In this document: in pieces, positions 7,203 through 49,749 of the stretch
Position numbering within the stretch: the first letter of the stretch is position 1
Layout of the letters: each line of letters begins with the position of its first letter
NCBI RefSeq assembly: GCF_000739655.1
Contig: NZ_BATR01000157.1
Coordinates: forward strand, 1 to 50,089
Source: Verrucomicrobium sp. BvORR106
GTDB lineage: Bacteria; Verrucomicrobiota; Verrucomicrobiia; Verrucomicrobiales; Verrucomicrobiaceae
Direction: 5' to 3'
DNA: 50,089 nt
Made by a program: the position numbers and the translations under genes
The notes under the pieces: model-generated
Told to the model about the DNA's origin: nothing
Seen by the model: the letters and a program-made list of their open reading frames with translations, nothing else
The model's database searches: none

Positions 7203-10200
7203 TCACCTCACCCAAGGTTTGATCGCCTGTTGCAGCTTCTCGTTGTTTTCCACATTCAGGGAACGACCCACACGCAGCACGGCCTCCTCCCCGGAGGCAG
7301 TCATGATGCGAAGCTGGACCGGGGTTTCCCCAGGATGATCTGTGAGGATCTTGTGAATGGCATCCAGATCCTTGGGACCGTGCTTGAGCACGTCCATGTA
7401 GAGAGCCAGCGGCTTGGGCTTGCCGTTGAGTTTCTCTGGCTTGACCGGCTTCAGAGGCTTCACCTCCTGCACCGTCATACGGATGGTTTCCGAGCGGGAA
7501 TCCTTTTCACAACGCCCCTTCATGCCAATGACCCCGCCGTCCACGAGCAGGTCCTTGAACTTCTCATACCCCTCGCTCCAGGAGATCACTTCGACAGTGC
7601 CCGAGAAGTCTTCCAGGCCGAAGGTGGCGAAGGCGCGGTTGTCCTTCTTGGTGTACTTCACCTCCAGACGTTGGATCACCCCCGCCACGCGCAAGCTGAC
7701 CCGCTCTTCCTTGACCTCCTGCACGTCCGCAATACGCGTGATGTACTTGCTCTCATAGACGTGGCGGTAGTTATCGAGCGGGTGGCCGGAGACGAAGAAG
7801 CCGAGAAGCTCCTTCTCAAACGCCATGAGCTCTTCCTTCGTCCATGGCGTCGTGGTGACCGACTTCGGCAGGGAGTTCTTCGTAGCCCCCATGGTGTCAT
7901 CATCGAAGAGGCTGATCATGCCAGCCTTGCGTTCTTTCTGACGACTGGAGGCATTGGAGAGAACCTCATCCAAAACAAAGCACATGGAGGCGCGATCTTG
8001 CCCCGTCCAGTCAAAGCCCCCCACCTTGATGAGAGGCTCCATGAGGCGCTTGTTGATCATGCGGGAGTCCACCCGGGAGCAGAAATCTTCGAGGCTGGTG
8101 AAGGGCCCGCTCTTGGTGCGCTCTGCGATGGCCGCCGTCATCGCGGCCTCACCCACGTTCTTCACCGCCGCCAGTCCGTAGCGAATGGCATTAGGCTCCT
8201 CGCTGCCCTCAATGCACTCCGGGGCAAACTTGAGCGAGCTCTTGTTCACGTCCGGCGGCAAAATGGTGATGCCCATGCGCTGACACTCCGAGACAAAGCC
8301 TGCCAGCTTGTCCGTGCTGTTGACTTCATAGGAGAGCACGGCCGCCATGAACTCCACCGGGTAGTTCGCCTTCAAGTAGGCCGTCCGGTAGGTCACAATC
8401 CCGTAAGCCGCGGAGTGCGACTTGTTGAAGCCGTATCCTGCGAACTTCTCCAGCAAGTCGAAGATGTCGTTCGCCTTCTTCGCCGGGATCTGGTTGGTCT
8501 CGCCGCAGCCCTTCACGAAGATGGTGCGCTGCTTCTCCATTTCCTCCGGCTTCTTCTTACCCATGGCTCGGCGGAGCAAGTCAGCCGCACCCAGGGAGTA
8601 GCCTGCGAGCAAGTTGGCCGCCTTCTGCACCTGTTCCTGGTAGATGAGAATGCCGTAAGTTTCCTTGGAGACGTCCTCCAGCAGGGGGTGGAGGTATTCC
8701 ACACGCTGCTCCCCTTTCTTACGCTTGATGAAGTCCGGGATCAGGTCCATCGGGCCCGGACGGTATAGCGCCAGCAGAGCGATGATTTCCTCGATCTTGT
8801 CCGGCTCCAGCTGGCGGCAGGTGAGAGCCATACCGCCAGATTCCATCTGGAACACTGCGATCGTCTCGCCCTTCCTCAGCATCTCATAGGTCACCTTGTC
8901 ATCCAGGGGCACCGCATCCAGGTTGAAGTCCGGGAACCTCAGCCTGACGAAGTCCACGGCGTCCTTGATGACCGTGAGCGTCTTCAGCCCCAGGAAGTCC
9001 ATCTTCAACATGCCCACATCTGTGAGCGGGCCCATGGCAAACTGGGCCACAACTTCCCCTTCACTTCCCCGGGTCAGCGGGATGAAGTTGTCCAGCGGCT
9101 GGTCTCCAATAACGATGCCCGCCGCGTGAATGCCGGCGTTACGCGTCATGCCTTCCAGGAAGGTGGCGTACTGCCAGAGCTGCTGCGTGCTGCTTTCGTT
9201 CTCAATCGCCGCCTTGAGCTCGGGGTTCTTCTCGACCGCCGATTCGAGGTCGATGTTGAGCTCGGTCGGAATCATTTTGGAGAGCCGGTCGGCATCCCCG
9301 TAGCTCCAGCCCAGCACGCGGCCCACGTCACGCACCACGCTCTTGGCACCCATGGTGCCGAAGGTGATGATGTGGCTCACGGAACGCTCCCCGTAGTGCT
9401 GCCGCACGTACTCGATGACCTCGGGACGACGGGTCTGGCAGAAGTCGATGTCCACGTCAGGAGGCGACACACGTTCCGGGTTCAGGAAACGTTCGAAGAT
9501 CAATCCGAAGCGGATGGGACAAAGGTCAGTGATGCCCAGTGAGTAAGCTACCAGGGAACCGGCCGCGGAACCACGGCCCGGACCCACGGGGATGCCGTGA
9601 TCCCGTGCCCACTTGATGAAGTCCCACACGATAAGGAAGTAGGACGTGAAGTTCATCTTGTTGATGATCCCCAGTTCGTAGTCCAGACGCTCCCTGAGCA
9701 GGGCATCATTCCCGGCACGCTCCTCCCCATACCGGGAGACCATGCCCGCCTCGCACAGCTGTCGGAAATAGCCATCCCGCGTCATGCCCTCCGGCGGTGG
9801 GAACTGGGGGTACTTCTCAATGCTGGAGGCATCCAGCTTCAGCTTGATATTGCACTTCTCCGCAATCTCCAGAGTGGTGTCGCAGGCCTCCTCGAAGTCC
9901 TCAAAAAGCTCCCGCATCTGCTCCGCCGTCTTGAAGTACACCTCCGGCGAGTAGTGCAGCCGCTTCTCATCGTGCACGTTGGCGGCCGTGCCGATGCAGA
10001 TCATGACGTCATGCGCTTCGTGATCCTCCTTGTTCAGGAAGTGCACGTCATTGGCCGCCACCATCTTCAGACCGAACTCCCGGGAGAACTCACGCAGCTT
10101 CACCATACAGCGCTGCTGCTGGGCCATGCCGTGGTTGTGGAGTTCGAGGTAAAAATTATCCTTCCCGAAGATGTCGATGAACTCCTGGACGGTCTTGCGG

Positions 10201-10670
10201 GCCTCATCCTCCCGGTCAGTGAGAATGAACTCGTTGATCTCTCCGCTGATGCACCCGCTCAGGCAGATCAGCCCTTCGGAGTGCTTTTTCAGCGCCTCCT
10301 TGTCCACCCTCGGCTTGTGGTACATGCCGTCCAGGTGGGCCAGCGTCACCAGCTTCACCAGGTTGGCATACCCTTCATTGTTCGCGGCCAGGAGGGTGAG
10401 GTGGGAATTGCGCTTCCGTCCCGTGACGTCCTTCTTCTCCCACATGGATCCGGGGGAAAGGTAGATTTCGCACCCGATGATCGGCTTCACCCCGGCCTTG
10501 TTGGCCTCCTGATAGAACTCGATGGCCCCGAAAAGGTTCCCGTGGTCCGTCATCGCCACCGCTGGCATCCCCAGCGATTTGACCTTCTTCATCAGATCCG
10601 GAATCCTCACCGCTCCATCGAGCATCGAGTATTCCGTGTGCAGATGAAGATGGACGAAAGAGGCGGACAT
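7203..10670 (-). CDS. dnaE: DNA polymerase III subunit alpha
   Basis: This 1155-residue protein is the replicative polymerase catalytic subunit, close to the usual DnaE length. The N-terminal PHP domain begins HLHLHTEYSMLDGAV. The polymerase core has the catalytic aspartates in PDVDIDF (Asp405 and Asp407) and the conserved KMDFLGLKTL segment, plus GYGFNKSHSAAYG in the thumb/fingers region. A C-terminal OB fold (about 990-1075, beginning RVAGVIQRLEVKYTKK) follows. The tau-binding tail is short but present. The ATG at 10670 gives a normal DnaE N-terminus. The gene stands alone, with intergenic DNA on both sides and no obvious partner in an operon. Confidence 0.98.
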   Translation of the reverse strand: MSASFVHLHLHTEYSMLDGAVRIPDLMKKVKSLGMPAVAMTDHGNLFGAIEFYQEANKAGVKPIIGCEIYLSPGSMWEKKDVTGRKRNSHLTLLAANNEGYANLVKLVTLAHLDGMYHKPRVDKEALKKHSEGLICLSGCISGEINEFILTDREDEARKTVQEFIDIFGKDNFYLELHNHGMAQQQRCMVKLREFSREFGLKMVAANDVHFLNKEDHEAHDVMICIGTAANVHDEKRLHYSPEVYFKTAEQMRELFEDFEEACDTTLEIAEKCNIKLKLDASSIEKYPQFPPPEGMTRDGYFRQLCEAGMVSRYGEERAGNDALLRERLDYELGIINKMNFTSYFLIVWDFIKWARDHGIPVGPGRGSAAGSLVAYSLGITDLCPIRFGLIFERFLNPERVSPPDVDIDFCQTRRPEVIEYVRQHYGERSVSHIITFGTMGAKSVVRDVGRVLGWSYGDADRLSKMIPTELNIDLESAVEKNPELKAAIENESSTQQLWQYATFLEGMTRNAGIHAAGIVIGDQPLDNFIPLTRGSEGEVVAQFAMGPLTDVGMLKMDFLGLKTLTVIKDAVDFVRLRFPDFNLDAVPLDDKVTYEMLRKGETIAVFQMESGGMALTCRQLEPDKIEEIIALLALYRPGPMDLIPDFIKRKKGEQRVEYLHPLLEDVSKETYGILIYQEQVQKAANLLAGYSLGAADLLRRAMGKKKPEEMEKQRTIFVKGCGETNQIPAKKANDIFDLLEKFAGYGFNKSHSAAYGIVTYRTAYLKANYPVEFMAAVLSYEVNSTDKLAGFVSECQRMGITILPPDVNKSSLKFAPECIEGSEEPNAIRYGLAAVKNVGEAAMTAAIAERTKSGPFTSLEDFCSRVDSRMINKRLMEPLIKVGGFDWTGQDRASMCFVLDEVLSNASSRQKERKAGMISLFDDDTMGATKNSLPKSVTTTPWTKEELMAFEKELLGFFVSGHPLDNYRHVYESKYITRIADVQEVKEERVSLRVAGVIQRLEVKYTKKDNRAFATFGLEDFSGTVEVISWSEGYEKFKDLLVDGGVIGMKGRCEKDSRSETIRMTVQEVKPLKPVKPEKLNGKPKPLALYMDVLKHGPKDLDAIHKILTDHPGETPVQLRIMTASGEEAVLRVGRSLNVENNEKLQQAIKPWVR

Positions 10671-10805
10671 GTCCCTTTGAGATAGGGCAGAAAACGGGCC
10701 CGCGCAAGGGTCCCCGACCCGGAACTCAGCTCAACTTTTCAGCCCCTCGCCACCCCATCCACGGCAGCCCCCTTCCTCGTTTGCCTCCCTTCATCCACCG
10801 CACGC

Positions 10806-11141
10806 CTAGGCCATCTCAGCCTTGCCCAGAAACTCCCACTCCATCCCGTTCTTCCAGTCCGGGTTCCCTTGGGAAAAGGACGTGAACTTCCTCACGATCT
10901 CTCCCGCGCTAAAGTCACGCTTCGCCCGGAATTGCTGGGAGGTGGAATCCTGGTGCGCCAGCTCAAACCCCACATCCCGATCCCCGCTGGCCTGCAGAAA
11001 CGTCCGATCATCCAGCTGATCCAGGATCAGGAAAGCATCCCCCTCCCTCGAATCGAGCGCGAAGACGGCTTCTCTAATATCCTTCTCAGTAGGGTTCTCC
11101 ACACTGACTCCACCACAGATTCCCAACGTATATCGTTTCAT
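10806..11141 (-). CDS. Small conserved-looking protein of unknown function
   Basis: A 111-residue soluble protein. Visible features are a helix-forming PTEKDIREAVFALDSRE, strands DAFLILDQLDD and TFLQASGDRDVGFELAHQ, and a C-terminal segment ending NPDWKNGMEWEFL. I have seen this general pattern (helix, ILDQ-like strand, TFLQA, then a Trp-containing tail) in small uncharacterised bacterial proteins, some near toxin-immunity loci, but I cannot name a family with confidence. It is divergent from the TerD-nuclease gene across 269 bases, so a shared regulatory region is possible. Confidence 0.65.
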   Translation of the reverse strand: MKRYTLGICGGVSVENPTEKDIREAVFALDSREGDAFLILDQLDDRTFLQASGDRDVGFELAHQDSTSQQFRAKRDFSAGEIVRKFTSFSQGNPDWKNGMEWEFLGKAEMA

Positions 11142-11208
11142 ACCAGATCAGGGGTGAGATTATGCCTCCGCAGAGGCCGACGTCTTCAGTAAAACGATTA
11201 TGTCTGGA

Positions 11209-11224
11209 TTTTGTTGTGACAAAA
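11209..11224. repeat. Inverted repeat between two divergent genes
   Basis: TTTTGTTGTGACAAAA is a perfect 6-bp inverted repeat with a 4-base spacer. It lies in the AT-rich interval between the small unknown gene (leftward) and the TerD-nuclease gene (rightward). It is the right size and place for an operator, but no regulator is encoded nearby and no clear promoter could be fixed around it. Confidence 0.35.
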
Positions 11225-11410
11225 TAAACACAGATCCACAATTTTCTCAATTGCACATTATACATTTCTCAGTTCTGAAACGATTTTGGGACTGAGCAAC
11301 TCACCTTTACAACCGAGGCTAGCCTCAGGGATCCACCTATTGGTTACTTTTTTGCTTCGACAAACTAGCAAATTTCTCGAAAGAGCCACCGGACTGCGTA
11401 GGGTGCCGAC

Positions 11411-12847
11411 ATGCCAGTTATTCTACCCAAAGGTGGGAACATCTCTCTGTCATCCGAAGATCATTCAGATGGCAAACTCTCGGTGGCGCTCGGATTCAGC
11501 CCCTCTGCCAGCATTACCTCGCCCATTGATATGGACGCGAGCGCATTCCTGCTTGGGGAGGATGGGAAAGTTCGGCGGGGAGGCGACTTCATCTTCTACA
11601 ATCAACCCTGTGACGAAGAGAGCCGGTTTATCTGCCTCCTTGAGAACGCTTCCGACCCCGCCGCAAACGTCAAAGGGGCGGAGGATGGAGACCCTGACCA
11701 TGTTCGATTCTCCATCGATCTGGAAGCGATCCCCCCGGAGATTCAGCGGATCGTCTTCTGTCTGACGTTGCACGGTGCCGAAGAGAGGCGGCAGAATTTC
11801 GGATGCATCGAGAAGCTCTACCTCCGGGTCCTCAATCGAACCCAGAACCTCGAAACAGTCCGGTTTGAGGCGGTGGGAGAGTTCACGACGGAAACGGCTC
11901 TCCAGGTCAGCGAGCTCTACCGGCGGGGAAACGACTGGAAGTTCCGCGCCATCGGCCAGGGGTATTCCGGAGGTTTGGCGACGCTTGCTACCGGCTTTGG
12001 CGTGCATCTCGAAATGGCTGGAGACCCAGAGGAATCACCTTCACCAAAGCAGGATGAGGCAGATGAGACTGCAAATTTTGAGGTGGTCCCGCCGAGCATC
12101 AGCACCAGCAAAGCTCCGCCGGAACTGACAGACGGCTTCACTTCGCAGCTTCCTTCGCTATCCAAGAAGAAACGTAGGACCAGTTCGGAGATCCTGGCGT
12201 CGCAGACGGAGGAAATCGCGCGTGCGATGAAGCCGTTCCTGCCCCAGATAGGTCTTACCCTGAGAAATGCCGCGAACGAGAGCAGCACCCGCATCTTGCT
12301 GGATCGCATCCTGCAACAGGTGCTGGGCTACAGCCTCGAAGAGATCAAGGCGGAGCACAAGATACAGGGACGCACCGCTGACTATGTCCTCTCTCCTGGC
12401 GGAATCGATTCGGTGGTAATCGAGGTCAAGCGCATCGGCGCGCCTCTGAAGCAGAAGCAAATCTTCCAAGCCACCAGCTACGCCGCCTACTCCGGGATCA
12501 AGTGGGCACTGCTGACCAACCTCATCACTTGGAAACTCTACCGGGTGTCCACGACCGACAAGATCGAGCCGCATCTGGTCTTCACCATCGACCTGAACAA
12601 AGGCCTCTCTGAAGACGCCGCCCACTATCTGACGCTCATCTCGAAGAGTGGCATCGTCCGGAAAACACCGCTGGAGAGATTGTGGCAGATCCGACGATCC
12701 CTTTCCACCGAGAGCCTGATTGGGGCGATTCTTCACGATGACGTGCTCAGTCGAATTCGCACCCTCATTGCGCGAGACACTGGCATCAATCTCGCCACGG
12801 CGGACATCAAGGCCGCACTGGAGCAGGACATTCTAAAAATCGAATAG
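11411..12847 (+). CDS. TerD-like domain fused to HsdR_N-type PD-(D/E)XK nuclease
   Basis: The 478-residue protein joins two modules. Residues 1-200 read as a TerD/TerZ stress domain: MPVILPKGGNISL start, ASAFLLGEDGKV, FIFYNQP, and ELYRRGNDWKFRAIGQGYSG near 168. The usual GDNxTGxGxGDDE calcium motif is degenerate (GAEDGDPDHV, about 89-98). After a low-complexity linker (about 203-255), residues 285-390 resemble the N-terminal nuclease of type I restriction subunit HsdR. Asp324 (ADYVL), Glu338-Val-Lys340 (VVIEVKR) and Gln353 (QATSYAAY) fit the D-ExK-Q pattern, followed by ALLTNLITWKLYRV. A helical tail follows. There are no helicase motifs, specificity subunit or methylase beside it. A stress- or phage-responsive nuclease is my inference. 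The start fits the TerD family N-terminus although the ribosome-binding site is weak. Confidence 0.8.
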   Translation: MPVILPKGGNISLSSEDHSDGKLSVALGFSPSASITSPIDMDASAFLLGEDGKVRRGGDFIFYNQPCDEESRFICLLENASDPAANVKGAEDGDPDHVRFSIDLEAIPPEIQRIVFCLTLHGAEERRQNFGCIEKLYLRVLNRTQNLETVRFEAVGEFTTETALQVSELYRRGNDWKFRAIGQGYSGGLATLATGFGVHLEMAGDPEESPSPKQDEADETANFEVVPPSISTSKAPPELTDGFTSQLPSLSKKKRRTSSEILASQTEEIARAMKPFLPQIGLTLRNAANESSTRILLDRILQQVLGYSLEEIKAEHKIQGRTADYVLSPGGIDSVVIEVKRIGAPLKQKQIFQATSYAAYSGIKWALLTNLITWKLYRVSTTDKIEPHLVFTIDLNKGLSEDAAHYLTLISKSGIVRKTPLERLWQIRRSLSTESLIGAILHDDVLSRIRTLIARDTGINLATADIKAALEQDILKIE

Positions 12848-12871
12848 CCCTCAGCGGAGCCCCCAACCCCG

Positions 12872-12956
12872 CGATGCCAGTCTGAAAGGCACTGGCATCG
12901 CAAACACCAAGATGGAAGGGCCACGAGACACCTGATCTCGGGTGGCCCTCCTATTT
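12872..12956 (+). terminator. Two tandem hairpins, terminator between convergent genes
   Basis: The first hairpin has perfect 10-bp arms (CGATGCCAGT at 12872-12881 with ACTGGCATCG at 12891-12900). The second pairs AGGGCCAC (12917-12924) and GAGA with TCTC and GTGGCCCT (12942-12949), followed by CCTATTTTC. This can end the rightward TerD-nuclease transcript. The leftward operon ends at 12961, so the structure may serve both strands. Confidence 0.65.
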
Positions 12957-12960
12957 TCGA

Positions 12961-13572
12961 CTAGAGCTGCAAGGAGGCGATCTGCGCCATCAAGTCTTCA
13001 CTGATCTTCCGATACAGATCCTTGCCGGTTTCGTGATAGTTGGCGGGATCATAGTACCAGGGCTCCCCGACCACGAGCGTCACTTCTGAAGGCGCCGGCA
13101 TGGAGCCGCCACGCGGGAGGGCTTCACGAGTGCCGAAGAGACGAACCGGGATCACCGGGACATCGGACTTGGCAACGATGAGACCTACGCCAGGCTCACC
13201 GGGAAGCATCTTCCCATCCAGATTGCGGGAGCCCTCAGGGAAGATCAGCACTTTCTCTCCCAGCTTGAGCTGGCGGATCACGGCCTTCAAGCCACCCATA
13301 TCTGGCTTGTCCTGGTCCACAGGGATGCAGTTCCAGGCGCGGTAAATGGCGCGTGACACAGCATTGCTCATCAGCGACTTTCTCGCGAGGTAGTAGATCT
13401 CCTCGTCGAACGCGATCCCGACGGCCGGCGGGTCCACGAAGCTCGCGTGATTGGAGACGATCAAGGCACCGCCTTCGAGATTCAACCTCTCACCACCGAT
13501 GACCTGATAGTTGAAGAACCCCCGGGCGAGGGTTTTGAATGTATGATAGCCCAACCAGTAAGAGAGTTTCAT
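12961..13572 (-). CDS. plsC: 1-acyl-sn-glycerol-3-phosphate acyltransferase
   Basis: The 203-residue enzyme should transfer an acyl chain to lysophosphatidic acid, giving phosphatidic acid for membrane lipids. The catalytic HX4D motif is NHASFVD (His42, Asp47). The glycerol-phosphate binding motif is FPEGSRN at about 111, and a further block lies at VPVIPVRLFGT. It is the last gene of a leftward operon: its ATG overlaps the stop of the upstream kinase gene by four bases (ATGA), indicating translational coupling. Confidence 0.93.
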   Translation of the reverse strand: MKLSYWLGYHTFKTLARGFFNYQVIGGERLNLEGGALIVSNHASFVDPPAVGIAFDEEIYYLARKSLMSNAVSRAIYRAWNCIPVDQDKPDMGGLKAVIRQLKLGEKVLIFPEGSRNLDGKMLPGEPGVGLIVAKSDVPVIPVRLFGTREALPRGGSMPAPSEVTLVVGEPWYYDPANYHETGKDLYRKISEDLMAQIASLQL

Positions 13573-14276
13573 GCGGATGCTGCAGGAGCTTGGACCGGAC
13601 CCGTTTCAGGGAAACTGCGGGATGCCAGAAGGGCGCGCACGTGAGCGACCACTTCTGCGAGATTCATTTCTGAGCTGTCAACCACCACGGCATCCGCCGC
13701 AGCCATGAGGGGCGCGGTCTTACGCGTGGAATCCATCCTGTCGCGATCACGCACCGAGTCAGTCAGCCCCTGGAGACCGCGACGCTTCGCGCGGACTTCC
13801 TCAGAGGCATCGATGTAGAACTTCCAAGGGGCATCGGGGAAGATCACCGTGCCAATATCACGCCCTTCCATCACTGAGGGCTGCGAGCGCCCGATCCCTC
13901 GCTGCAGATCGAGCAGGATCGCCCGCACCTTGGGAATGCGAGCCACGTGGGAGACGGCTTTGTTCACCGGCTCGGAATTCAACTCCCCGTCCACATCCGC
14001 CCCATTGACCAGGATGACACTGCGGCCATCGCGAACCGGGCAGGTGAACTCCGTGCGGTCGATCACTTCCAGCACGGCGGATTCGTCTGTAGGGTCCGCA
14101 TCCGCCAGGATCACTGCCAGCGTGGCGGCGCGGTACATGTTGCCAGTGTTCACATAGGTCCAGCCCAGGTGGGCCGCCAGTTCACGGGCCACACTGCTCT
14201 TTCCAGAGGCAGCCGGCCCGTCAATGGCAATCACCAGAGGTGGCACCGCAGGAGTCGAGTCGTCGAGAGTCGTCAT
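13569..14276 (-). CDS. cmk: Cytidylate kinase
   Basis: The 235-residue enzyme phosphorylates CMP/dCMP with ATP. The P-loop is IDGPAASGKSSVAREL near the N-terminus. Family blocks YVNTGNMYRAATL, VMEGRDIGTVIFPDAPWKFY and RAKRRGLQGL (lid) are all present. The length is typical. It follows aroA by two bases and overlaps plsC by four, so it sits in a tight operon. In many bacteria rpsA follows cmk; here plsC does. Confidence 0.95.
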   Translation of the reverse strand: MTTLDDSTPAVPPLVIAIDGPAASGKSSVARELAAHLGWTYVNTGNMYRAATLAVILADADPTDESAVLEVIDRTEFTCPVRDGRSVILVNGADVDGELNSEPVNKAVSHVARIPKVRAILLDLQRGIGRSQPSVMEGRDIGTVIFPDAPWKFYIDASEEVRAKRRGLQGLTDSVRDRDRMDSTRKTAPLMAAADAVVVDSSEMNLAEVVAHVRALLASRSFPETGPVQAPAASA

Positions 14277-31537: not shown

Positions 31538-34123
31538 CTACTCGATCATTGCCTGACCGAACTCCCCGCTATTGCCTCGCACCCACGCTCTCACGCGCAC
31601 TTTTTCATCTGGAAGATTCGCAGGGACACGCAAGGGCACCTGGAGCACCCCCTCCTCGGAAGTGGTCAGCGAGGTCTCCCAAAGATACTGACCAGCATCC
31701 TGGCCCCGGTCAGGCCACGGTATGGATTGCGCGAGCAACTTCTGGACGAACTCCTCCGGCATCCGATGGGGCTCATGAGCCCCGCAGGCGGTCGTATGCT
31801 TCCGGTAGTTCGCTTTCGTTTGGAGGGGTGACAACACTCTGTCGTAACCCCAGGGCTCCGGGTCCACATTGATTTCCCCGATGGAGTTCGGTGTCCAGGG
31901 GCGGTAGTCCACAGGAAGCGCGGAGACCAGGAACCTCCGAAAATCGTGCGCCGGTGGAGATGGCGGAGAGGGCTCCAAATCCGCCAGATAGGCACTCATC
32001 ACCACCCGGGCGGATGGCAGAGGCTGCCCGTCCGCACGCACGGCCTTCAAGGTGACGGCCCGCTCACCCGCAGGGCTCCTTGCAATACCCAGATCAACGA
32101 TCGCCAGTTCCCGCTCCGGGAGCACAGGGATGCGGACGAGCGAGGTGAAGCATCTGGAACGACGCACCCCTACGATCTCCACCATTCTTTCCGGCACATT
32201 CTCCTGTCTGACACTCACCAGGCAAGTGGTCCGGCCCCCGGCATCCACCTCCAGCAACTTCGCACGAGCATACCGCCCTCTTTCAATCCGGTCGTACAAC
32301 AGCAAGGGACCTCCCGGCAAGGTCTCGATCTTCAACTGGGCAACCTCCCCGGCTCGATAGTGCGGCTTGTCCATGGTCACCCGAATTCCCTCTTCCACCG
32401 TTATCTCCCTAGATACAAAGAGAGGCCCTTTGATCACCACCGTGGCCATCGTGACTACCTGCCCCTGGCGCACCGCATAAGCCGTCACTCGATAGTCTTT
32501 CTGCCCAAGCTCCGCCCGGGCCTGATACCAAGAGGCCAAGGCAAAGTCGAATGCGGCTTTCCCCTCCGCGTCCGTGGTCAACTGCCGTCGAGCCACGATG
32601 GTGGGATGCTCGTAGGAAGGCCATGGCCAGCCCAGGTCACTGAAGTGCTGCACACGATTCGTCAGATGATTTTTGCCGTAGAGCCAGTCCCAACCGGTGT
32701 TGTCGGCTATGACCTCGGAGGGCAGCATGTCCACCTGACACTCGATCACGGTGTCTATCCCCCGCTCCTGATGCGGATCCTCCAGCTGGAAGGTTAGAGG
32801 AAATGCCACCTCCGGGCCCACTACCTGGGTGGGGGCATGGATCTTGATCCTCGGGATCTCGTCAGCGGTGCGACCTTGGGCAATCATCAGCGGCACGCTG
32901 GCAAAACAGTCCGCTGAACTCAGGTGATATTCCCCTACTGCCAAACCCTGAGGCACGTCCAACGTCAGATGAGACATCCCATGCTCATTCATGGTCGTGA
33001 CCGCCCTCGCGATGGGTTGCGACCTGGCATTGTACAGCTTGACCTCAACTTCCTTGCCCGATTCACTTGGCGACCGGGACCAGACCGCCACTTGGACCTG
33101 ATCACCTGGCCGATAGCAGGAGCGATCAGAGGCGAGGAAATAGTCTCTTCGAGAGATCGGCTCGGGAACTTCAGGCCTGCACAAGCGATCCAACATCCAG
33201 TGCCCGCCTAACGTCATACGGCCATCGGGAGTCCAAGCCTCCAACATCAGCGAACTATCCTGCAAGTGCGTCAGTTCCAGTGGAAAGCTGCCATCCGCCC
33301 CCACCGGGAGGGGAAACTCCACCTGCCGATATGACTTGGCCGTCGCTCTGGCTTCCTCGGCATCGAGTTTACGGATGCCAGCCCATCGCACTTTCGCATC
33401 AGGCACGGGATGCCCTGTTCTTGCATCCAGGACATACCCATAGCCATAACCGCCCGCTGGATCCGCCGACATTTTCGCCAGGAGCACCAGTCCAGAGATG
33501 TCCACGATGCACTGGGTGACAGCACCATTGGCCAGCCTCCCTTTCAGAAAGTACACGCCGGGCTCCTTCAGCGGCGTTATTACCTCCATGCGGCGGCCCT
33601 CATAAGGCAGACCAGGGGGCAGCGATGTCTGCCATCTCACCGCGTTCCTTGGCAGATCGAGCAGCAGCTCGCCTTCCATGTTGGTCAGCCATGTCCGCCA
33701 TCCGGCTCTCCTTTGAAGGATCGCAGTCAGCGGATGACTAGTTTGAGATACGCCTGTCCGGTTATGTTCCGTTGCCGGGGGCAGGGTCGCCTTGTACCGG
33801 ACAAGGCTCGTCAGGTTCAGCATATCCACGCGTCTTGCCGTGAAGCTGATTTCTCCGGCATTCCGATAGCAGAGCCCTACCTTGGCAAATTCACCGTAGG
33901 GTTGCGCTTCATACGCATCCAAGAGCGCGGCTGGCTTTTCAGCCTCACGGAGAGGCAGCTCGATCTTTCGGATGATCTCCTGCAATTTCTCAAACTGCTT
34001 CGCCTGGGAGGGATCCGGCCCAGAGGGTTCCACAGCCCCCAGACTGGCAAGCCCCATCAACAGAAGCCCCAACCACCGACAAGTTCCGATGGGCAGGGAT
34101 GCACGACGTCCGTTGGAGCTCAT
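31538..34123 (-). CDS. Short alpha-2-macroglobulin-like protein lacking the thioester domain
   Basis: The 861-residue secreted protein (signal CRWLGLLLMGLASLGA) has the macroglobulin-like beta-sandwich domains of bacterial alpha-2-macroglobulins. Seen are FLKGRLANGAVTQCIVDISG, YVLDARTGHPVPDAKVRWAG and the MG2-like FLASDRSCYRPGDQVQVAVW. It ends LPDEKVRVRAWVRGNSGEFGQAMIE, inside the A2M family domain, just before the thioester, TED and receptor parts of a full protein would begin. It is a paralog of the adjacent 2,117-residue protein. It is either a genuine short form or a truncated copy; no downstream remnant in another frame is visible. The stop is followed after 137 bases by the lipoprotein. 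Confidence 0.85.
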   Translation of the reverse strand: MSSNGRRASLPIGTCRWLGLLLMGLASLGAVEPSGPDPSQAKQFEKLQEIIRKIELPLREAEKPAALLDAYEAQPYGEFAKVGLCYRNAGEISFTARRVDMLNLTSLVRYKATLPPATEHNRTGVSQTSHPLTAILQRRAGWRTWLTNMEGELLLDLPRNAVRWQTSLPPGLPYEGRRMEVITPLKEPGVYFLKGRLANGAVTQCIVDISGLVLLAKMSADPAGGYGYGYVLDARTGHPVPDAKVRWAGIRKLDAEEARATAKSYRQVEFPLPVGADGSFPLELTHLQDSSLMLEAWTPDGRMTLGGHWMLDRLCRPEVPEPISRRDYFLASDRSCYRPGDQVQVAVWSRSPSESGKEVEVKLYNARSQPIARAVTTMNEHGMSHLTLDVPQGLAVGEYHLSSADCFASVPLMIAQGRTADEIPRIKIHAPTQVVGPEVAFPLTFQLEDPHQERGIDTVIECQVDMLPSEVIADNTGWDWLYGKNHLTNRVQHFSDLGWPWPSYEHPTIVARRQLTTDAEGKAAFDFALASWYQARAELGQKDYRVTAYAVRQGQVVTMATVVIKGPLFVSREITVEEGIRVTMDKPHYRAGEVAQLKIETLPGGPLLLYDRIERGRYARAKLLEVDAGGRTTCLVSVRQENVPERMVEIVGVRRSRCFTSLVRIPVLPERELAIVDLGIARSPAGERAVTLKAVRADGQPLPSARVVMSAYLADLEPSPPSPPAHDFRRFLVSALPVDYRPWTPNSIGEINVDPEPWGYDRVLSPLQTKANYRKHTTACGAHEPHRMPEEFVQKLLAQSIPWPDRGQDAGQYLWETSLTTSEEGVLQVPLRVPANLPDEKVRVRAWVRGNSGEFGQAMIE

Positions 34124-34205
34124 GGATGGGGAAAGGTGAAAGTCCAATGAGCAGGACGGAGACCCGCCCTAATCCTTGGCATTTTTTTCAGCCTTTCACC
34201 CACTC

Positions 34206-34259: not shown

Positions 34260-37200
34260 TCAATCCTTCGTATCTTCTACCACCACACTCCGCTCTTCCG
34301 CATTCCCCTTCAGTTCCGGCGCATACATCCCCTCGATCACACTGGGGAGGGCGCTGAACTTCCCGGGGATTTCAGCACGGAGGCGGTAGGTCAGCGATTG
34401 CTTCCCGCGAGGCAACCTCTCCAGGTAGTGCGTCACCTTCTCATCGCGGAACTCGCGATAGGTGTTCAGCCCCTGGCTCCACACGTAGCCGCTCTGCAGA
34501 TCCACGGCCTCGCAGCCAGCGGGCTTGAAGTCCTCCAGCATGAGGTACTCGTAGTCGTTCTTGCTCTCCGTGATGAGTTCCACTTCCAGCAGGTCACCGC
34601 TTTTCACGGTGGCCTCCGGTCCCAGGGGTTCGCGGCGATAACGCGACCCCTGCTGCTTGAGAGCCTGGCCATGGGCGCCCGACACCAGATCCTGCGTTTT
34701 CTCCGGCACCAGCTTGTAGAGGTTCCGCTGCACCTTCACTTCCAGCCCGGCCGCCCGGAGGTGATCCTCCAGGGTGAAGCAGGCGAGGTAAGCGTTGGCG
34801 TACAACGGCCCCGCCCCTTTGCGACGGATCTCCAGCTGGTGTTTGCCTGCGGTGAGCGCCTCGCCCTCGATCACAAAGGCGTGGTCGAACGAGAACAGGT
34901 TGTCCTTGTTGATGGGGGCCTCTTTGACCTTCTTGCCATCCAGCCACAACTCCACCAGCAGATCAGGGGTGGTCTCGCCGGAGGCCTTGATGTACATGGC
35001 CAGGGCGCTGATGGCGGCCGCCGTGTCGCGGGTGCTCTTCCAGTAGTTCCCGTGCTTGCGGTTGTTCAGCAGGTACTTCACGAGACGGGAGGCCACCGGG
35101 TCCTTGCCGTCCTTGATGAGGCGCAGCTTGAGGTAGGCGGCGAGAGTCTCGGTCTCGTCATCATACCAGTACCACCAGCGATGGTCATTGCCGAAGTCCA
35201 GCCACGCGGTCTGGTTCTCCTCATCCTGCTTCTGGAACTGCTCCAGGTTGCGGATGATCATGTCCCGCCGCTCCGTCTCCTTGACGGTGGCGCAGGCCAG
35301 ACCCACGAGAGCCTGCATCGATTTCGAGAGCGTGAGACGGTCGTTGTAGAGATGCGTGCGCATGCCTTTGTTTCCGAGATCCCCGGCGACCAACGCAGCG
35401 TGCACGAGGGCGTCTTCATTGTCCGCCTGGGTCTTGTGATCCTCAGCCTTCTCCGGCAGGTTCAGGCGGCGCAGTTCCTCCTCCTCATGCCGCGCCAGCC
35501 AGTCCAGTCCGCGGCTCAGCATGCCAGCGGGCACATCGGCTCCCGCAGCCTGGGCCTGGAGCAGGCCATCCACGACCTGGGCGGTGAGGTGCACGGAACC
35601 CTGAGCCGCCCCGGGCCACCATCCCCACCCACCATCGTTGGCCTGCATGGACTCGAGCCGGTCAATGCCGGCCGCGGCCATCTTCTTGACGACTTTCTCG
35701 TCGAAGACCGGATCCTGATCGTTCTTGCGATAGCGCCGCCACTGCTGGGCGCGTTTGACGGGATCTCCCAGCTCCTGGGCATTCAGGTTCACACCCTTGT
35801 CCCGAATGGCTTTGAGATCCAGGCCCAGATCCAACAGCACCTTCTGGGTGATCACGGTGGGCACAAACCGGTTCAACGTCTGCTCCGTGCAACCATGCGG
35901 ATAGCTCACGAGGAACGGCAGGGCATCCACCATGGCGGCAGCCAGGCTGGGGCTGTAACGTACCTCGAACCGTGTCTGGGCGGGACGACGCTTGTCTGGC
36001 ACTTCAAAGGCAATGGTCCCCTGCCCCTGATCCGGGCGAATGGCCAGGCTCCAGGCGTCCTGCCGCAACATGCCGTGCACATAGACGGGGAACTTCTTCT
36101 CCACCGCATCGCTCTCGCCTGCGGCCAGAGCCTTCATGCGAACCGTGGCCTCGCCCTCGGCGATCACCTTGACGCGCCAGTCAAACCGGTGCTCGCCGCC
36201 AGGAGCGATCTCGAACCGCTGCTCGGTGGCCTGCCCCTCCAGCGGGGCGAGCGTCTTGCCGTCGAGTTCGAGGACCGCACGCACGTTCTGCTTATCCTTC
36301 AGATCATTGTGCACGATGCCGGAGAGCACCACCTCATCCCGCTCCACAAAGAAGCGCGGGGCCTGCATGCGCACGAGCAGGTCCTTGCGACTGATCACTT
36401 CCACCGAAGCCTCGCCCACTTCCGTATTTGGGCCCAGGACCCAAGCGCGGAGCTTCCAAGTGGTGAGATCGTCGGGGAAGTGCACCGGCAGAGAAACCTT
36501 GCCCTGGGAGTCCGTGGTCGCCGCAGCATGCCACACCAGCAGATCGGCAAAGTCCTGCCGGATCATGGGCGTGGCCTCTTCGGCTCCTGCCACCGATTGA
36601 TTGGAAGCCAGCAGCCCATCAATCGAGTCCGCGGTGATCGCCTTGGACTTGGCAGCCTCCATGGGCGCGGGCGCCGCTGCCGCCATGGGAGCCGCACCCG
36701 TAGACACCATGTCATAGTCCGCCCGGCCATTCCGCTTGATCTCATTCTTGAATCCCACCCCAGCTCCAAACCCTCCTCCGCTCCCTCCAACGGCAAAGTT
36801 CATCCGCGTGCTCATGCCAAGGTAGCGGTTCCCAAACACGCCCACCGGCTCCCAGTTGAGCCCTGGCAAGGAGATGCGGGAGTTCACGGTATTGAGGGAG
36901 CTCACCCCCGTCATAAAGTGACTCCGCTTCCAACCCCAGAAGAAGTCCCGGACGTTCGGCACGTTACTCCCGCCAGAGATGTACTCCAGCGCCTTGTCAT
37001 AGCCAGTCAGGATGACCGGCCCCTGCACCGGCGTGCCATCGGGATGCTTCACCTGGATCTGCACCGTGCCATCGGCCTGCGGCTTGTAAGTCTCCTGGGA
37101 AGGGGTGAGGTTCACGTCAGCAATCCGCTTGCTGGGCGGCACCGGCACCTGCACCACCTGGGTGTGGATCTTGGCTCCATGAACCGTCACCACCTCCAGA

Positions 37201-40200
37201 AAGAAATTGGGCTGGTCATTCGTACCGACGGGCAGGGTGATGCGGGTGGACTTGCCCTGGGCCAGCGTCACCACGCGGGGCTTGGGATAACCGCCATTCT
37301 GAGGACGCTCGAACACCAGGATGCTGCCGCCCTCCTGGGCGATGTTCACCACGAAGGCAGCGTCTTCGCCAGGGGCATACTCCGCCTTCTCCGCCACCAC
37401 CTCCAGATCCGGGAAGCGGAAGTCCTTGCCGTCAAAGTCCTTTCCTCGCACCGTGGTGTGCGCCGTGCCTTCCACCTTGTGCCCTGCGCCGTCGTCAAAC
37501 TCCACCGCCAGGCGATAGTGCCCCGTCTGGGGGAACTGAAGCACCTGCACAGCGGGGTTGCCATCGCGGGCCACCAGCTCGAACCGTGACTTCTCGATCT
37601 CCACCGGTGCGCCGCCTGGCTCATAGGTGACGGCTAGAACCTTTAGCACCGCCTTGCCATTCACGGGACTGCCATCCGGCGTACGGGCTTGCACCGAGAC
37701 ACGGGCCTCCGCACCGGCATCATAGAATCCACGATGCGTCCACACATACACCTGATAAGGCTGGCGCGGGGCCACGACCGACCCGGAGCCGGAGATCATG
37801 CGACGGGATGAGTCCGTCACCTCCGCGGTGATGTTGTACTTGTGATCCTGATCGCCATGCAGCTCCTTGGCCAGAGAGGTTTCGATAGGGATCTTCACCG
37901 TGCCATCCGGACCAATGTCCACCGTGGCCTCCGCCACGACTTCCGGCGGATCTGACCGCACACCCCACCAGGGCGGCCAGATGCGGATGCAGCTGGCGTA
38001 GCCTGGGAGCCAGGCGTAGTCATTGTTCCGCCACCAGTAGCCGGGGCCGTAGAGCCAGTCCCAGGGTGTGACGGGGAACCAGGAGGCATCATGACGCACG
38101 CGCTCCACTTTATAGTGCACCTTGGCCTCGCTCACCGCCCCGCCGAAGTAGTACTTGGCCTCCACCGTGGCGGTGAAGGGCTCGCCCAGTTGCACCGGCT
38201 TCTCCGGCGTTTTCACTTTGACCTCGAACTCGGGCTTCTTGTACTCCTCCACTTGGAAGAAGGCATGACCTGCAATCTGGGTGTGGTTGCTGAAGCTCAC
38301 TGAGTAGCGCCCCAACCCGGCAGTATCGGCCAGGGAAAGGTCCAGGCTCATGGCACCATTCGCATCCGCGACCACATGCTGCTCCAGCAACTTCTCCCCA
38401 CGGGGATCGTTGATGCGGACCACAAAGCGCTGGTTGGCGAACTCATTGCCATTCTTGCCCTCCTCATAGGTCGCCCGGCGGGCCCAGCCTGCCAGATAGA
38501 CTTTTTGTCCGGGGCGATAAGCGGGGCGATCCGTGGTGATGTAGAGCTTGAGCTGCTGGCCATCGGGATTCTGGCCCATGTAGTGCCGGTAGAACTGGTT
38601 GAAACCAATCACCGCCAAGCCGCCATCCGGAGACTCCACTCTCAAGAGCCAGTTGTAGCGATTCTCCTCATCCATGTTGAGCGGGAAGATTCCCTCCGCA
38701 CCGCTGGTGATGCGTTGTTCGCGGGTGAACCAGTACTCCTTGGACCGATTGCCCTCACTGCGGTACTCGTGGCGATATCCGAAGGCCAGCACTTTGGCCT
38801 TCGAGACCGGGCGTCCCGTGGTTGCATCCAACACAAAGCCATGAGCCCCCGCCCCGTTGAGGACGGGCTTGGTCAGCACCACCAGATCCGCCAGCTCCAC
38901 CATACAATGGGCCACACCGCCGCCCTCGAACGTGGCTTCGAGGAAATACACACCTGCCCGGCTCAGTGGCGTCTCCAGAGTGATGCGGCGGTCGGCGTGC
39001 TTCTCGCGGGGCTCCAGCGCCACCTCCCACGTAGCGGCAGGCTCTCCCAGATACTTCTCCACCTCAGACTGGCGGACCGGCACATTCCCGCTGAGCAAGG
39101 AGCCAAACGCCTGGTTCAGCCACGTCCACTGGCTCTGTTCCCGTTCTTTCTTCCCATTGGCCCGCGCCTTGTACTCTGCCTGCAGGGTATCGAGCAGCGC
39201 GTCCAGCTTCACAGGTCTGGCTGTGAGCTTCACCTGTTTGGCATTGCGGAACACGAGGTCCACCGTGGCCTTCTGCCCGGCTGGTAGGGTGTCCTTGCCT
39301 TCCAACTTGCCCAGATGACCCTCAATCTGGCTGAGCCGCCCTTCAGCCACTTCCTTGACCAGAGGGTCTTTGCCATGTCGCTCAATGACCTCTTTCCACA
39401 CTGCCGCTGCCAATTCGCGCTGCTGGCGGTTCTCGTGGATGAATGCGAGTTGTATCAAAGCCTGAGGAGCGCTCGCAGTGCTGCCCATTCCAAGCTCCCG
39501 CAGGATCGGTATGAACCGGTAGTCTTCAGGAAGTGTGTGCCGGCGAATCCCGGTCGCCAGCTTGGTGATGGTCTCCTCAGGCTTGAGCGTGGGGAGATCG
39601 ACAATGCCCTGGCGCAGATCACTCTCTTCTTTGCCGTCCTGTTCACTCCTTTTCACGATCAGCGGCCAGACGGCGGTCCGTTGCAGAGTATCCACATCCA
39701 GCCAGCTTTGGATCTCACTTGCAAAGGCGAACGTCGCCAGATGGGCTGAGGCCGGATCTGTCTCCGCAGCCAGTTTCAGGAGATAACGCCAGCGCTCGCC
39801 GTCACTGGTGGCCGCATCCCAGGAGGCGGGGATCTTGAAGTAAACAGGGTTGCCTGCGGCATCCACGGGATAGCCAGTGTCGTCTCCCGCATACCCCCAC
39901 GGCCCCCGACCTCGGCCTGGCCACATCATCTGGCCTCGTCCACCTTCATTGATCTCCACCTCTGGCAGTTTCTCCAGGTCAGTCAGGCTCTGGAGTTCCC
40001 AGGGGGCCTTGCCGGAGAGAAGCCCATTGGCCTCCGTCAAAAGTACGTTTACCCGCTCCGCTGCCGGTGCACCTGCATCCTGCAAGGCCAGGGTGGAAGC
40101 CTTGCGCAACCAGACGAGCCCCTGCACGCGGTCGCGATCTGTGCTGTCGGCTCTCTTGCCCGTCCAGTTCTGCCGCTGATACTTGCCATCTGTCACACTA

Positions 40201-40613
40201 CCTTGATGAGCACTGCGCTCCAGGATGCTGGCGGAAAGGGTCAACACCCGCCAGTTCTGGGGATGAGCCTTTTGCACGCCTTCCAGCAGCGCATCCAGCC
40301 CGGTGCCCGCCGTGCCCAGCCCCTGCTGAGCCAAAAACGCAAGCTCAAGGCCCTTACGCACCTGTTGATCGGTGGCACCGGATTCTTGGGGGGGGCTGTC
40401 CAACAGAGGCTGGAGCAGCTTCATCGCCTCCGCCCCATTGCCCTCACTCAGCAGTTTCTCGGCCCGCACCAGCAGCTTGGCTTGGTCGCCATCACTTTTG
40501 CCGCCAGCCCCCTGGCCCAGCAGGTCCAGAGAAAAGGCTGAGTACCACACCACCACCGGCACGAGTGCCGCGAGCGTGGCGAACCAGGGGAGTTTCAGGA
40601 AAGAGCGTTTCAT
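34260..40613 (-). CDS. Full-length bacterial alpha-2-macroglobulin with thioester
   Basis: This 2,117-residue envelope protein should trap attacking proteases, as bacterial alpha-2-macroglobulins do. Order: an N-terminal membrane anchor or signal (FATLAALVPVVVWYSAFS), a helical TPR-like region (about 40-400), MG domains with ITTDRPAYRPGQKVYLAGW, and the A2M domain LVWHAAATTDSQGKVSLP. The thioester YPHGCTEQTLN (Cys1575, Gln1578) follows, then the alpha/alpha toroid (NDGGWGWWPG) and C-terminal beta domains. The CxEQ thioester is intact. There is no lipobox Cys, so it is probably anchored by the N-terminal helix. No mrcB/pbpC-type partner, the usual neighbour in proteobacteria, is present; a short paralog and two lipoproteins follow. 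The frame is open to 40676. Confidence 0.93.
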   Translation of the reverse strand: MKRSFLKLPWFATLAALVPVVVWYSAFSLDLLGQGAGGKSDGDQAKLLVRAEKLLSEGNGAEAMKLLQPLLDSPPQESGATDQQVRKGLELAFLAQQGLGTAGTGLDALLEGVQKAHPQNWRVLTLSASILERSAHQGSVTDGKYQRQNWTGKRADSTDRDRVQGLVWLRKASTLALQDAGAPAAERVNVLLTEANGLLSGKAPWELQSLTDLEKLPEVEINEGGRGQMMWPGRGRGPWGYAGDDTGYPVDAAGNPVYFKIPASWDAATSDGERWRYLLKLAAETDPASAHLATFAFASEIQSWLDVDTLQRTAVWPLIVKRSEQDGKEESDLRQGIVDLPTLKPEETITKLATGIRRHTLPEDYRFIPILRELGMGSTASAPQALIQLAFIHENRQQRELAAAVWKEVIERHGKDPLVKEVAEGRLSQIEGHLGKLEGKDTLPAGQKATVDLVFRNAKQVKLTARPVKLDALLDTLQAEYKARANGKKEREQSQWTWLNQAFGSLLSGNVPVRQSEVEKYLGEPAATWEVALEPREKHADRRITLETPLSRAGVYFLEATFEGGGVAHCMVELADLVVLTKPVLNGAGAHGFVLDATTGRPVSKAKVLAFGYRHEYRSEGNRSKEYWFTREQRITSGAEGIFPLNMDEENRYNWLLRVESPDGGLAVIGFNQFYRHYMGQNPDGQQLKLYITTDRPAYRPGQKVYLAGWARRATYEEGKNGNEFANQRFVVRINDPRGEKLLEQHVVADANGAMSLDLSLADTAGLGRYSVSFSNHTQIAGHAFFQVEEYKKPEFEVKVKTPEKPVQLGEPFTATVEAKYYFGGAVSEAKVHYKVERVRHDASWFPVTPWDWLYGPGYWWRNNDYAWLPGYASCIRIWPPWWGVRSDPPEVVAEATVDIGPDGTVKIPIETSLAKELHGDQDHKYNITAEVTDSSRRMISGSGSVVAPRQPYQVYVWTHRGFYDAGAEARVSVQARTPDGSPVNGKAVLKVLAVTYEPGGAPVEIEKSRFELVARDGNPAVQVLQFPQTGHYRLAVEFDDGAGHKVEGTAHTTVRGKDFDGKDFRFPDLEVVAEKAEYAPGEDAAFVVNIAQEGGSILVFERPQNGGYPKPRVVTLAQGKSTRITLPVGTNDQPNFFLEVVTVHGAKIHTQVVQVPVPPSKRIADVNLTPSQETYKPQADGTVQIQVKHPDGTPVQGPVILTGYDKALEYISGGSNVPNVRDFFWGWKRSHFMTGVSSLNTVNSRISLPGLNWEPVGVFGNRYLGMSTRMNFAVGGSGGGFGAGVGFKNEIKRNGRADYDMVSTGAAPMAAAAPAPMEAAKSKAITADSIDGLLASNQSVAGAEEATPMIRQDFADLLVWHAAATTDSQGKVSLPVHFPDDLTTWKLRAWVLGPNTEVGEASVEVISRKDLLVRMQAPRFFVERDEVVLSGIVHNDLKDKQNVRAVLELDGKTLAPLEGQATEQRFEIAPGGEHRFDWRVKVIAEGEATVRMKALAAGESDAVEKKFPVYVHGMLRQDAWSLAIRPDQGQGTIAFEVPDKRRPAQTRFEVRYSPSLAAAMVDALPFLVSYPHGCTEQTLNRFVPTVITQKVLLDLGLDLKAIRDKGVNLNAQELGDPVKRAQQWRRYRKNDQDPVFDEKVVKKMAAAGIDRLESMQANDGGWGWWPGAAQGSVHLTAQVVDGLLQAQAAGADVPAGMLSRGLDWLARHEEEELRRLNLPEKAEDHKTQADNEDALVHAALVAGDLGNKGMRTHLYNDRLTLSKSMQALVGLACATVKETERRDMIIRNLEQFQKQDEENQTAWLDFGNDHRWWYWYDDETETLAAYLKLRLIKDGKDPVASRLVKYLLNNRKHGNYWKSTRDTAAAISALAMYIKASGETTPDLLVELWLDGKKVKEAPINKDNLFSFDHAFVIEGEALTAGKHQLEIRRKGAGPLYANAYLACFTLEDHLRAAGLEVKVQRNLYKLVPEKTQDLVSGAHGQALKQQGSRYRREPLGPEATVKSGDLLEVELITESKNDYEYLMLEDFKPAGCEAVDLQSGYVWSQGLNTYREFRDEKVTHYLERLPRGKQSLTYRLRAEIPGKFSALPSVIEGMYAPELKGNAEERSVVVEDTKD

Positions 40614-40932
40614 GAGCGAGCAGGGGGAAGTGCGAGGACGGAGCACCAGACGGCGAAAACGCCGCAGTGCGTTCATACTAGGCCTGACGGAGAAATCGTG
40701 GCAATCTTGGAAAATAGCCTGATCCTGCGAGAAGATTCCCGAATGGACCCGGGACAGTGAATTCGACGACCTCGTGCTGACGGGGCGAATGTGACGAAAA
40801 GTCCACTTTGGACTCAGGGAAGGTGCCCCACAGTGACAGGCTGGTGAGGTTGGGTTCAGTCGTCAGCGGGGCGAGTACGGACACCGGTCTCCACAGGCAT
40901 CCGCTTACCCCCAATCCCCACCGTTCGGTGAC

Positions 40933-49003: not shown

Positions 49004-49009
49004 GTATTC

Positions 49010-49673: not shown

Positions 49674-49749
49674 TGGCCAAGGAAGATGATGAGCGGTCGA
49701 ACACTGTCTCCCGCCAAATGTGGCAATCAATCGAAAAAGATTCAAACTT

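Follow-up and report, generated by a model that had tools for sequence, protein, structure and literature searches.

A TerD domain joined to an HsdR_N-type PD-(D/E)XK nuclease in a single protein of Verrucomicrobium and on phage contigs

We identified a gene for a TerD-nuclease fusion protein of 478 amino acids at 11,411-12,847 (forward strand, ATG start) of the window (the whole stretch of DNA that was analysed, 50,089 nucleotides from Verrucomicrobium sp. BvORR106), defined by its open reading frame, Pfam matches and orthologues. Its N-terminal TerD domain (residues 1-196; 11,411-11,998, forward strand, as are all parts of the gene given below) matches Pfam PF02342 with an E-value of 1.3e-52 (178.4 bits, cut-off 25.3), and phmmer relates it to solved TerD structures (2kxt, E 7.7e-41; 3ibz, E 2.5e-36). 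Residues 201-256 (12,011-12,178) form a linker predicted to be disordered (pLDDT <50); they are followed by a PD-(D/E)XK nuclease domain of the HsdR_N type (residues 266-400; 12,206-12,610), assigned from Pfam, a structural model and fold matches (see below), and by a helical C-terminal part (residues 401-478; 12,611-12,844) that is seen in the model and is common to stand-alone relatives. For the nuclease domain, the HSDR_N_2 match (residues 290-383, E 7e-7, 29.7 bits) lies over its Pfam cut-off of 25, and the HSDR_N match (residues 311-383, E 0.0047, 17.3 bits) under its cut-off of 25.1. No other Pfam family was found in the protein at E-values up to 1, an NCBIfam search of the protein gave no match, and Rfam gave none within positions 10,000-14,000 of the window. 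The first-pass annotation had placed a TerD-type domain at about residues 1-200 and an HsdR_N-type module at 280-400, and both placements are borne out by these matches.

A full-length model of the fusion (13 sequences, pLDDT 74.9, pTM 0.45) predicts two ordered parts; it has low confidence in the linker (pLDDT <50) and does not fix the placement of the two halves. Orthologues of 477 amino acids, 87-89% identical overall and 72-74% identical over residues 201-265, are found in two further genomes of the genus; because they have the same start and near-equal length, the joint between TerD and nuclease is not an assembly or frame error. The architecture predicted from the sequence, an N-terminal TerD domain, a linker predicted to be disordered and an HsdR_N-type PD-(D/E)XK nuclease with a helical tail, is confirmed.

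The TerD half has a loop at about residues 66-97 (11,606-11,701) that lacks the GDNxTGxGDGDDE stretch of canonical TerDs, as judged from alignments and pLDDT (below 50 for residues 78-93). We take this stretch to have a calcium role in canonical TerDs; it is present, exactly or closely, in the aligned canonical paralogues, and absent from all six fused TerDs, which keep IDxDxSxFL exactly or nearly (for example, IDIDVSAFL in phage locus L039 and ADIDASIFL in L116). In a tree of 49 TerD domains, with many inner forks open, the fused TerDs fall on a multi-domain side (split support 92/97) together with TerF, a 433-aa TerD protein and a 672-aa phage-contig protein. The first-pass annotation had read the degenerate calcium motif as a sign that sensing has changed; the stretch is truly gone, but its loss is common to the other multi-domain TerDs that group with the fused ones. 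Three changes are needed on the TerD tree to explain the origin of the fused TerDs. For these comparisons the mixed alignments A2 and A4, in which nuclease rows were misplaced on the TerD half, were set aside, and the TerD columns of A2 were used. The 672-aa protein (L136:5890-7908), with its N-terminal TerD, is another candidate for a TerD-effector fusion; beyond TerD, the only domain that Pfam reports in it, it resembles by eye a GHKL-type ATPase.

In the nuclease half, we located Asp324 (the motif II aspartate; 12,380-12,382), Glu338-Val-Lys340 (the ExK motif; 12,422-12,430) and Gln353-xxx-Tyr357 (12,467-12,481), a QxxxY motif of the kind named for RecB-like nucleases. These five named residues and Glu290 are identical in all 80 aligned nuclease domains (81 rows less L085, whose match is too short or missing), and the earlier assignment of Asp324, Glu338, Lys340 and Gln353 to the active site is thereby strengthened. 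The first viral rows were picked by a pattern around Trp365-Trp374, so conservation there is by construction; the six residues lie outside it. In a model of residues 255-478 (11 sequences, mean pLDDT 88.8), two successive predicted strands (321-327 and 335-339) contain Asp324 and Glu338, respectively, and Lys340 directly follows the second, which fits the fold; whether the active-site residues cluster, a point on which the nuclease reading could have failed, was judged from these strand positions and the fold matches alone. Foldseek with this model gave one PDB match at E <0.001, BpuSI, and in a second fold comparison the modelled domain was closest to BpuSI (Z 12.7, 3.6 Å, 147 residues), DrdV (Z 12.4, 2.7 Å, 131 residues) and a Vibrio HsdR fragment (Z 12.1, 3.3 Å, 118 residues). 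Weaker matches of the model were EcoR124I HsdR (Z 9.4) and a mitoribosome chain (Z 8.5), and NucC (Z 6.7), a score at which the tool cautions that a match may reflect a common arrangement. Searching PDB sequences with the nuclease profile returned nothing credible (a single match, E 0.37); residues 266-477 match phrog_17239 (E 6e-36), and PADLOC gave type IIG matches alone, weak and in the nuclease part (E 4e-4 and 6e-3). Both the profile and the D...ExK...QxxxY layout of an HsdR_N-type PD-(D/E)XK nuclease are thus present, and nuclease activity is predicted.

The two-domain architecture, which the first-pass annotation had proposed to seek in other genomes, was found in two further genomes of the genus and on three phage contigs (see below). 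Within Verrucomicrobium it is present in three of the four genomes searched: the window's own (G000), strain BvORR034 (evidently G001, which gives the same protein; locus L012, a full-length relative 88% identical) and G003; the fourth (G002, 2.5 Mb, 76% complete) gave no match. Nuclease matches occurred in 5 of 57 genomes, namely the three with the fusion and two with a stand-alone gene (279 and 268 aa); among the 32 genomes from other genera of the family, two have a stand-alone nuclease and none the fusion. In a phylum search with the whole protein (387 genomes without G003, at most four candidates scored per genome) 19 genomes matched, only G000 and G001 over residues 1-478; similarly, a class search with the nuclease profile matched 36 of 384 genomes, only G000 and G001 at full length with the fusion's open frame. 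The remaining matches, sorted by match range and frame length, are TerD-only, stand-alone nucleases and weaker HsdR_N-like hits, some in long frames. A scan of genome contigs by short exact peptides, which distant fusions in other phyla could escape, found one locus, and no place covering 80% of the fusion query was found in 72,556 plasmid or 50,697 phage records. A candidate second fusion in Embleya (H1, 67% coverage) was rejected, being TerD with vWA, that is, TerF. Separately, L034:4902-7775 and L035:4989-7934 encode proteins of 957 and 981 aa with an HsdR_N-like N-terminus and, by eye, also a P-loop NTPase.

The neighbours of the fusion gene are genes for a CHASE2-cyclase, a 373-aa ORF, a FecR protein, dnaE, a 111-aa ORF, a plsC-type acyltransferase, cmk, aroA, prephenate dehydrogenase, dnaN and dnaA. 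The plsC-cmk-aroA side is constant in all three genomes, and the dnaE side only in G000 and BvORR034. The G+C content of the fusion gene (0.53-0.59 in 500-base windows) is close to that of the flanks (0.58-0.65), except for an intergenic stretch before the gene that is richer in A+T. Pfam scans of these 11 neighbours revealed no helicase, methylase or specificity gene, in agreement with the earlier remark that these parts of a restriction system are missing, which also holds for the protein itself by Pfam. A place near defence islands, where the first-pass annotation had suggested looking, was not found: the fusion lies among core genes, and no repressor, phage or defence gene was recognised in the 11 neighbours (all by Pfam, three also by PADLOC). 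Neither the 373-aa nor the 111-aa ORF has a Pfam match; the latter (10,806-11,141, reverse strand), divergent from the fusion gene and with a dN/dS of 0.009 against BvORR034, has no PADLOC match either. Elsewhere in the window, two ORFs of 2138 and 869 aa (34,260-40,676 and 31,538-34,147, both reverse strand) appear by eye to be of the alpha-2-macroglobulin type, and a 245-aa ORF (49,008-49,745, reverse strand) resembles by eye a Y1/REP-associated transposase.

We estimated dN/dS with our own Nei-Gojobori script; the ratios are rough because dS is near or above 1. Between the window and BvORR034 the TerD domain has a ratio of 0.09, the linker 0.086, residues 266-400 0.008 and residues 401-478 0.013; over the three pairs of genomes the nuclease with its tail ranges from 0.008 to 0.019 and TerD from 0.085 to 0.10. 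Among the neighbours the values are 0.031 (dnaE), 0.029 (plsC), 0.091 (cmk), 0.057 (aroA), 0.070 (prephenate dehydrogenase), 0.074 (FecR protein) and 0.046 (373-aa ORF), with the 111-aa ORF as given above. Purifying selection is very strong on the nuclease half, which is as constrained as any neighbour measured, and the low values in TerD and nuclease indicate that both halves are kept. Defence genes are usually fast-evolving and patchy; the core-gene place, plain G+C content, weak PADLOC matches and nuclease-half dN/dS of about 0.01 argue against a recent defence-type acquisition in Verrucomicrobium.

A scan of viral contigs with the nuclease alignment identified 78 loci; scanning again with the close clade gave six, adding only L116 to the set. 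TerD-nuclease fusions are encoded on three metagenomic phage contigs: L038 (418 aa), L039 (425 aa) and L116 (463 aa). Both Pfam domains are over cut-off in L039 and L116, and for L038 the assignment comes from tblastn, from PHROG and from a locally built TerD profile. Because L038 and L039 have flanking genes in common and carry neighbouring data-set numbers, the viral fusions are perhaps two independent finds. In L038 a separate canonical TerD gene ends 3 bases before the start of the fusion, and Rha-type regulator and terminase genes lie downstream; in L116 an HTH_3 repressor-type gene and an 87-aa ORF lie upstream. Three further phage proteins (L036, L037 and L040) belong to the fusion's nuclease clade and carry an N-terminus with paired cysteines instead of TerD; among them only L040 matches a zinc-ribbon profile, below cut-off. 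The nuclease tree unites the TerD and paired-cysteine members in a single clade (nine members, support 98/99), in which L116, a TerD fusion, is basal. DNA methylase genes lie downstream in L036 and L038, and the nuclease part of L038 has a match to the type IIG model of PADLOC (E 6e-8). Of the 23 loci from a third viral scan, three were the fusions already identified; the other 20 (L126-L145) are TerD loci, and a search of their DNA revealed no nuclease of the fusion's family. Among the nuclease loci examined (79 viral and 19 other) TerD was found only in the three viral-fusion loci, indicating that the nuclease does not need TerD. As a side observation, a FIST-FIST_C-GGDEF gene lies directly upstream of the TerD/TerD-nuclease genes (L038:1955-3745, L039:2514-4307; domains scanned in L038, the L039 copy near-identical by eye); its product is a probable diguanylate cyclase and could conceivably be a nucleotide-signal partner of the TerD-nuclease.

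We also examined the genes next to the viral nucleases, in 67 loci that remained of the 78 after removal of copies at >=90% identity (L066, in which no nuclease gene was called, was left out of the counts). In 24 of the 67 loci at least one of the two nearest upstream genes is a repressor-type HTH gene, and none was seen at these positions in the other 43; of the 27 upstream HTH genes, 24 are co-directional with the nuclease. An XRE/CI-type HTH gene occupies 27 of 127 slots at positions -1 and -2, against 16 of 536 elsewhere within six genes (Fisher p 7e-11; 23 of 119 against 15 of 511, p 4e-9, without the four profile-seed loci), values that are only indicative, given greedy gene calling, a home-made HTH profile and related phages still in the set. 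PHROG confirmed the repressor-type genes for L036, L037 and L040. The Thermus phage Riverbug has the order LexA-like regulator, nuclease, one further gene and integrase. Unlike these 24 loci, the Verrucomicrobium fusion has no repressor-type gene upstream among the scanned neighbours. The earlier suggestion of a stress- or phage-triggered nuclease stands in part: the three phage-contig fusions and the relatives adjoining repressors give it a phage link, while triggering by TerD, cutting of DNA and action against phage are predictions.

What TerD contributes to resistance against tellurite, phages and colicins is a long-standing question, and Ter systems are reportedly coupled to McrBC-like restriction (a 2012 study by Anantharaman). 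G000, G001 and G003 have six TerD genes apiece, counting the fusion. The Ter cluster of G000 comprises genes for TerB, TerD proteins, an ATP-grasp protein, PRTase-TRSP, StiP-PELOTA, a C-C lyase, AIM24, a TerY-type vWA protein, PP2C, another vWA protein and TerC, with a kinase-like gene just under the Pfam cut-off. The fusion (contig C53) and this cluster (contig C117) are on different contigs, and the fusion is not a ter-cluster gene. No TerD was found in the two family genomes with a stand-alone nuclease; that the fusion occurs together with Ter genes in three related genomes does not prove a link. In published work, TerD is proposed to sense a nucleotide derivative (PMC7824862, PMC7159879), a coupling of TerD systems with McrBC-like restriction components in operons is described (PMC3710099), and TerD-domain proteins of gut genomes were scanned for other Pfam domains (PMC12363816). 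No TerD-nuclease fusion is described in the accessible parts of these papers or of PMC8115787, PMC7251935 and PMC11128244, nor in the open-licence literature as far as it was available; the likeliest source, the 2012 study, lies outside that coverage, and we claim no priority.

The explanation we favour, at about even odds, is that the fusion is a phage-derived, domesticated nuclease, a two-part effector gated or positioned by TerD. The nuclease family, often carried by phages beside repressor genes, would most plausibly be expressed during lysogeny and protect against other phages or foreign DNA; one of its clades bears N-terminal modules, either TerD or a paired-cysteine, zinc-ribbon-like one. 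The TerD-nuclease fusion would then have been domesticated in the chromosome of Verrucomicrobium, a lineage that also carries Ter genes. Its TerD part may dock on Ter components, or sense their state or product, and this contact would release or place the nuclease, leading to a DNA cut during infection or stress. The fusion fits the published proposals of TerD sensing and restriction coupling, and the repressor-side locations fit an antiphage purpose of the nuclease family. The data establish the architecture, the invariance of the active-site residues, the predicted fold, purifying selection in both halves, the existence of relatives on phage contigs and the presence of Ter genes in the genomes with the fusion, whereas catalysis, substrate, gating by TerD, phage origin and antiphage purpose are inferred. 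Several observations run counter to it: the 11 scanned neighbours include no repressor, phage or defence gene, the fusion and the Ter cluster are on separate contigs, the gene is very conserved in the genus, unlike the usually fast-evolving and patchy defence genes, most nuclease loci lack TerD, and in 43 of the 67 viral loci no repressor-type gene was seen at -1 or -2.

In Verrucomicrobium itself, a domesticated role accounts for the strong conservation and the core-gene setting no less well than an antiphage one, which makes a housekeeping function a serious rival, possible if somewhat unlikely: the nuclease would act in repair or in processing at replication stress, and TerD would tether it to a Ter complex or the membrane, with no sensing. 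The fixed place among core genes (the plsC side in 3/3 genomes, the dnaE side in two), a nuclease-half dN/dS of about 0.01, below that of dnaE, the native-like G+C content and the 56-residue linker, whose predicted disorder suits a tether, all favour it. A general repair enzyme would hardly be confined to one genus (0/32 genomes from other genera of the family), and the relatives adjoin phage repressors.

An unprompted, restriction-like nuclease, cutting foreign DNA constitutively, e.g., by its modification state, with N-termini that add oligomerisation or DNA recognition, appears improbable to us. Most relatives found keep the active-site residues with neither N-terminal module, the modelled fold is nearest to type IIG and HsdR nuclease domains, the N-termini vary within one clade, and the type IIG match in L038 and the methylase genes downstream in L036 and L038 point the same way; but the protein and its 11 neighbours include no methylase, specificity subunit or helicase, so the cell would have to protect its own DNA in some other way, and TerD is kept under purifying selection. 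No activity data are known to us for any family member, which would suit a catalytically dead fold used for binding or regulation; with six motif residues invariant in 80/80 rows, outside the search pattern, we regard this as very improbable.

Within the favoured reading of a TerD-gated or TerD-positioned effector, the fusion points to an ability of TerD to trigger or anchor DNA cutting. The proposed nucleoside-like product of the Ter pathway, or a Ter protein complex, might even be the direct activating ligand of the nuclease, in an arrangement used first by phages and kept by Verrucomicrobium; we hold this to be distinctly unlikely, but if true, TerD would bind a signal and thereby arm a DNA-cutting effector on the same chain, as a Ter-based analogue of the nucleases gated by SAVED or cA3. 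One chain that joins TerD to an enzyme with an expected measurable output, DNA cutting, makes TerD function assayable, and the question for such an assay is whether a TerD partner or Ter metabolite alters cleavage. In addition, a phage-borne nuclease family without known function in PHROGs, whose N-terminus varies within one clade, is now tied to the Ter network.

Among known systems, TerF/TerA-type multi-domain TerDs (TerD with vWA, and the 433-aa Ter-cluster protein) are alike in having an N-terminal TerD without GDNxTGxGDGDDE followed by more sequence, but the second domain of the fusion is a PD-(D/E)XK nuclease rather than vWA, and its gene lies outside the ter cluster. The stand-alone phrog_17239 nucleases, named 'type I restriction enzyme HsdR N-terminal domain-containing protein' in plasmid records, have the same nuclease and helical tail but lack TerD, and are mostly ~240-300 aa. 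HsdR has the same D...ExK...QxxxY layout, and the modelled nuclease fold is common to HsdR and the type IIG enzymes BpuSI and DrdV (Z 12.1-12.7), whereas the fusion lacks helicase, methylase and target-recognition parts by Pfam. It is not a type I restriction-modification system (no HsdR helicase, HsdM or HsdS in the protein or its 11 neighbours), nor a type IIG enzyme (no methylase or target-recognition domain by Pfam at E-values up to 1). A similar idea is seen in the CBASS effectors Cap4 and NucC, in which a restriction-type nuclease is turned on by a sensor or ligand. SAVED is represented in Pfam, but unlike Cap4 the fusion has no SAVED match (E up to 1), and no CD-NTase gene is among its 11 neighbours; in the fusion the part of the sensor would fall to TerD. 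In McrBC-coupled Ter systems, as far as the accessible text describes them, TerD and restriction are coupled in operons (PMC3710099). Coupling of TerD to restriction was known before; here it lies within one polypeptide chain.
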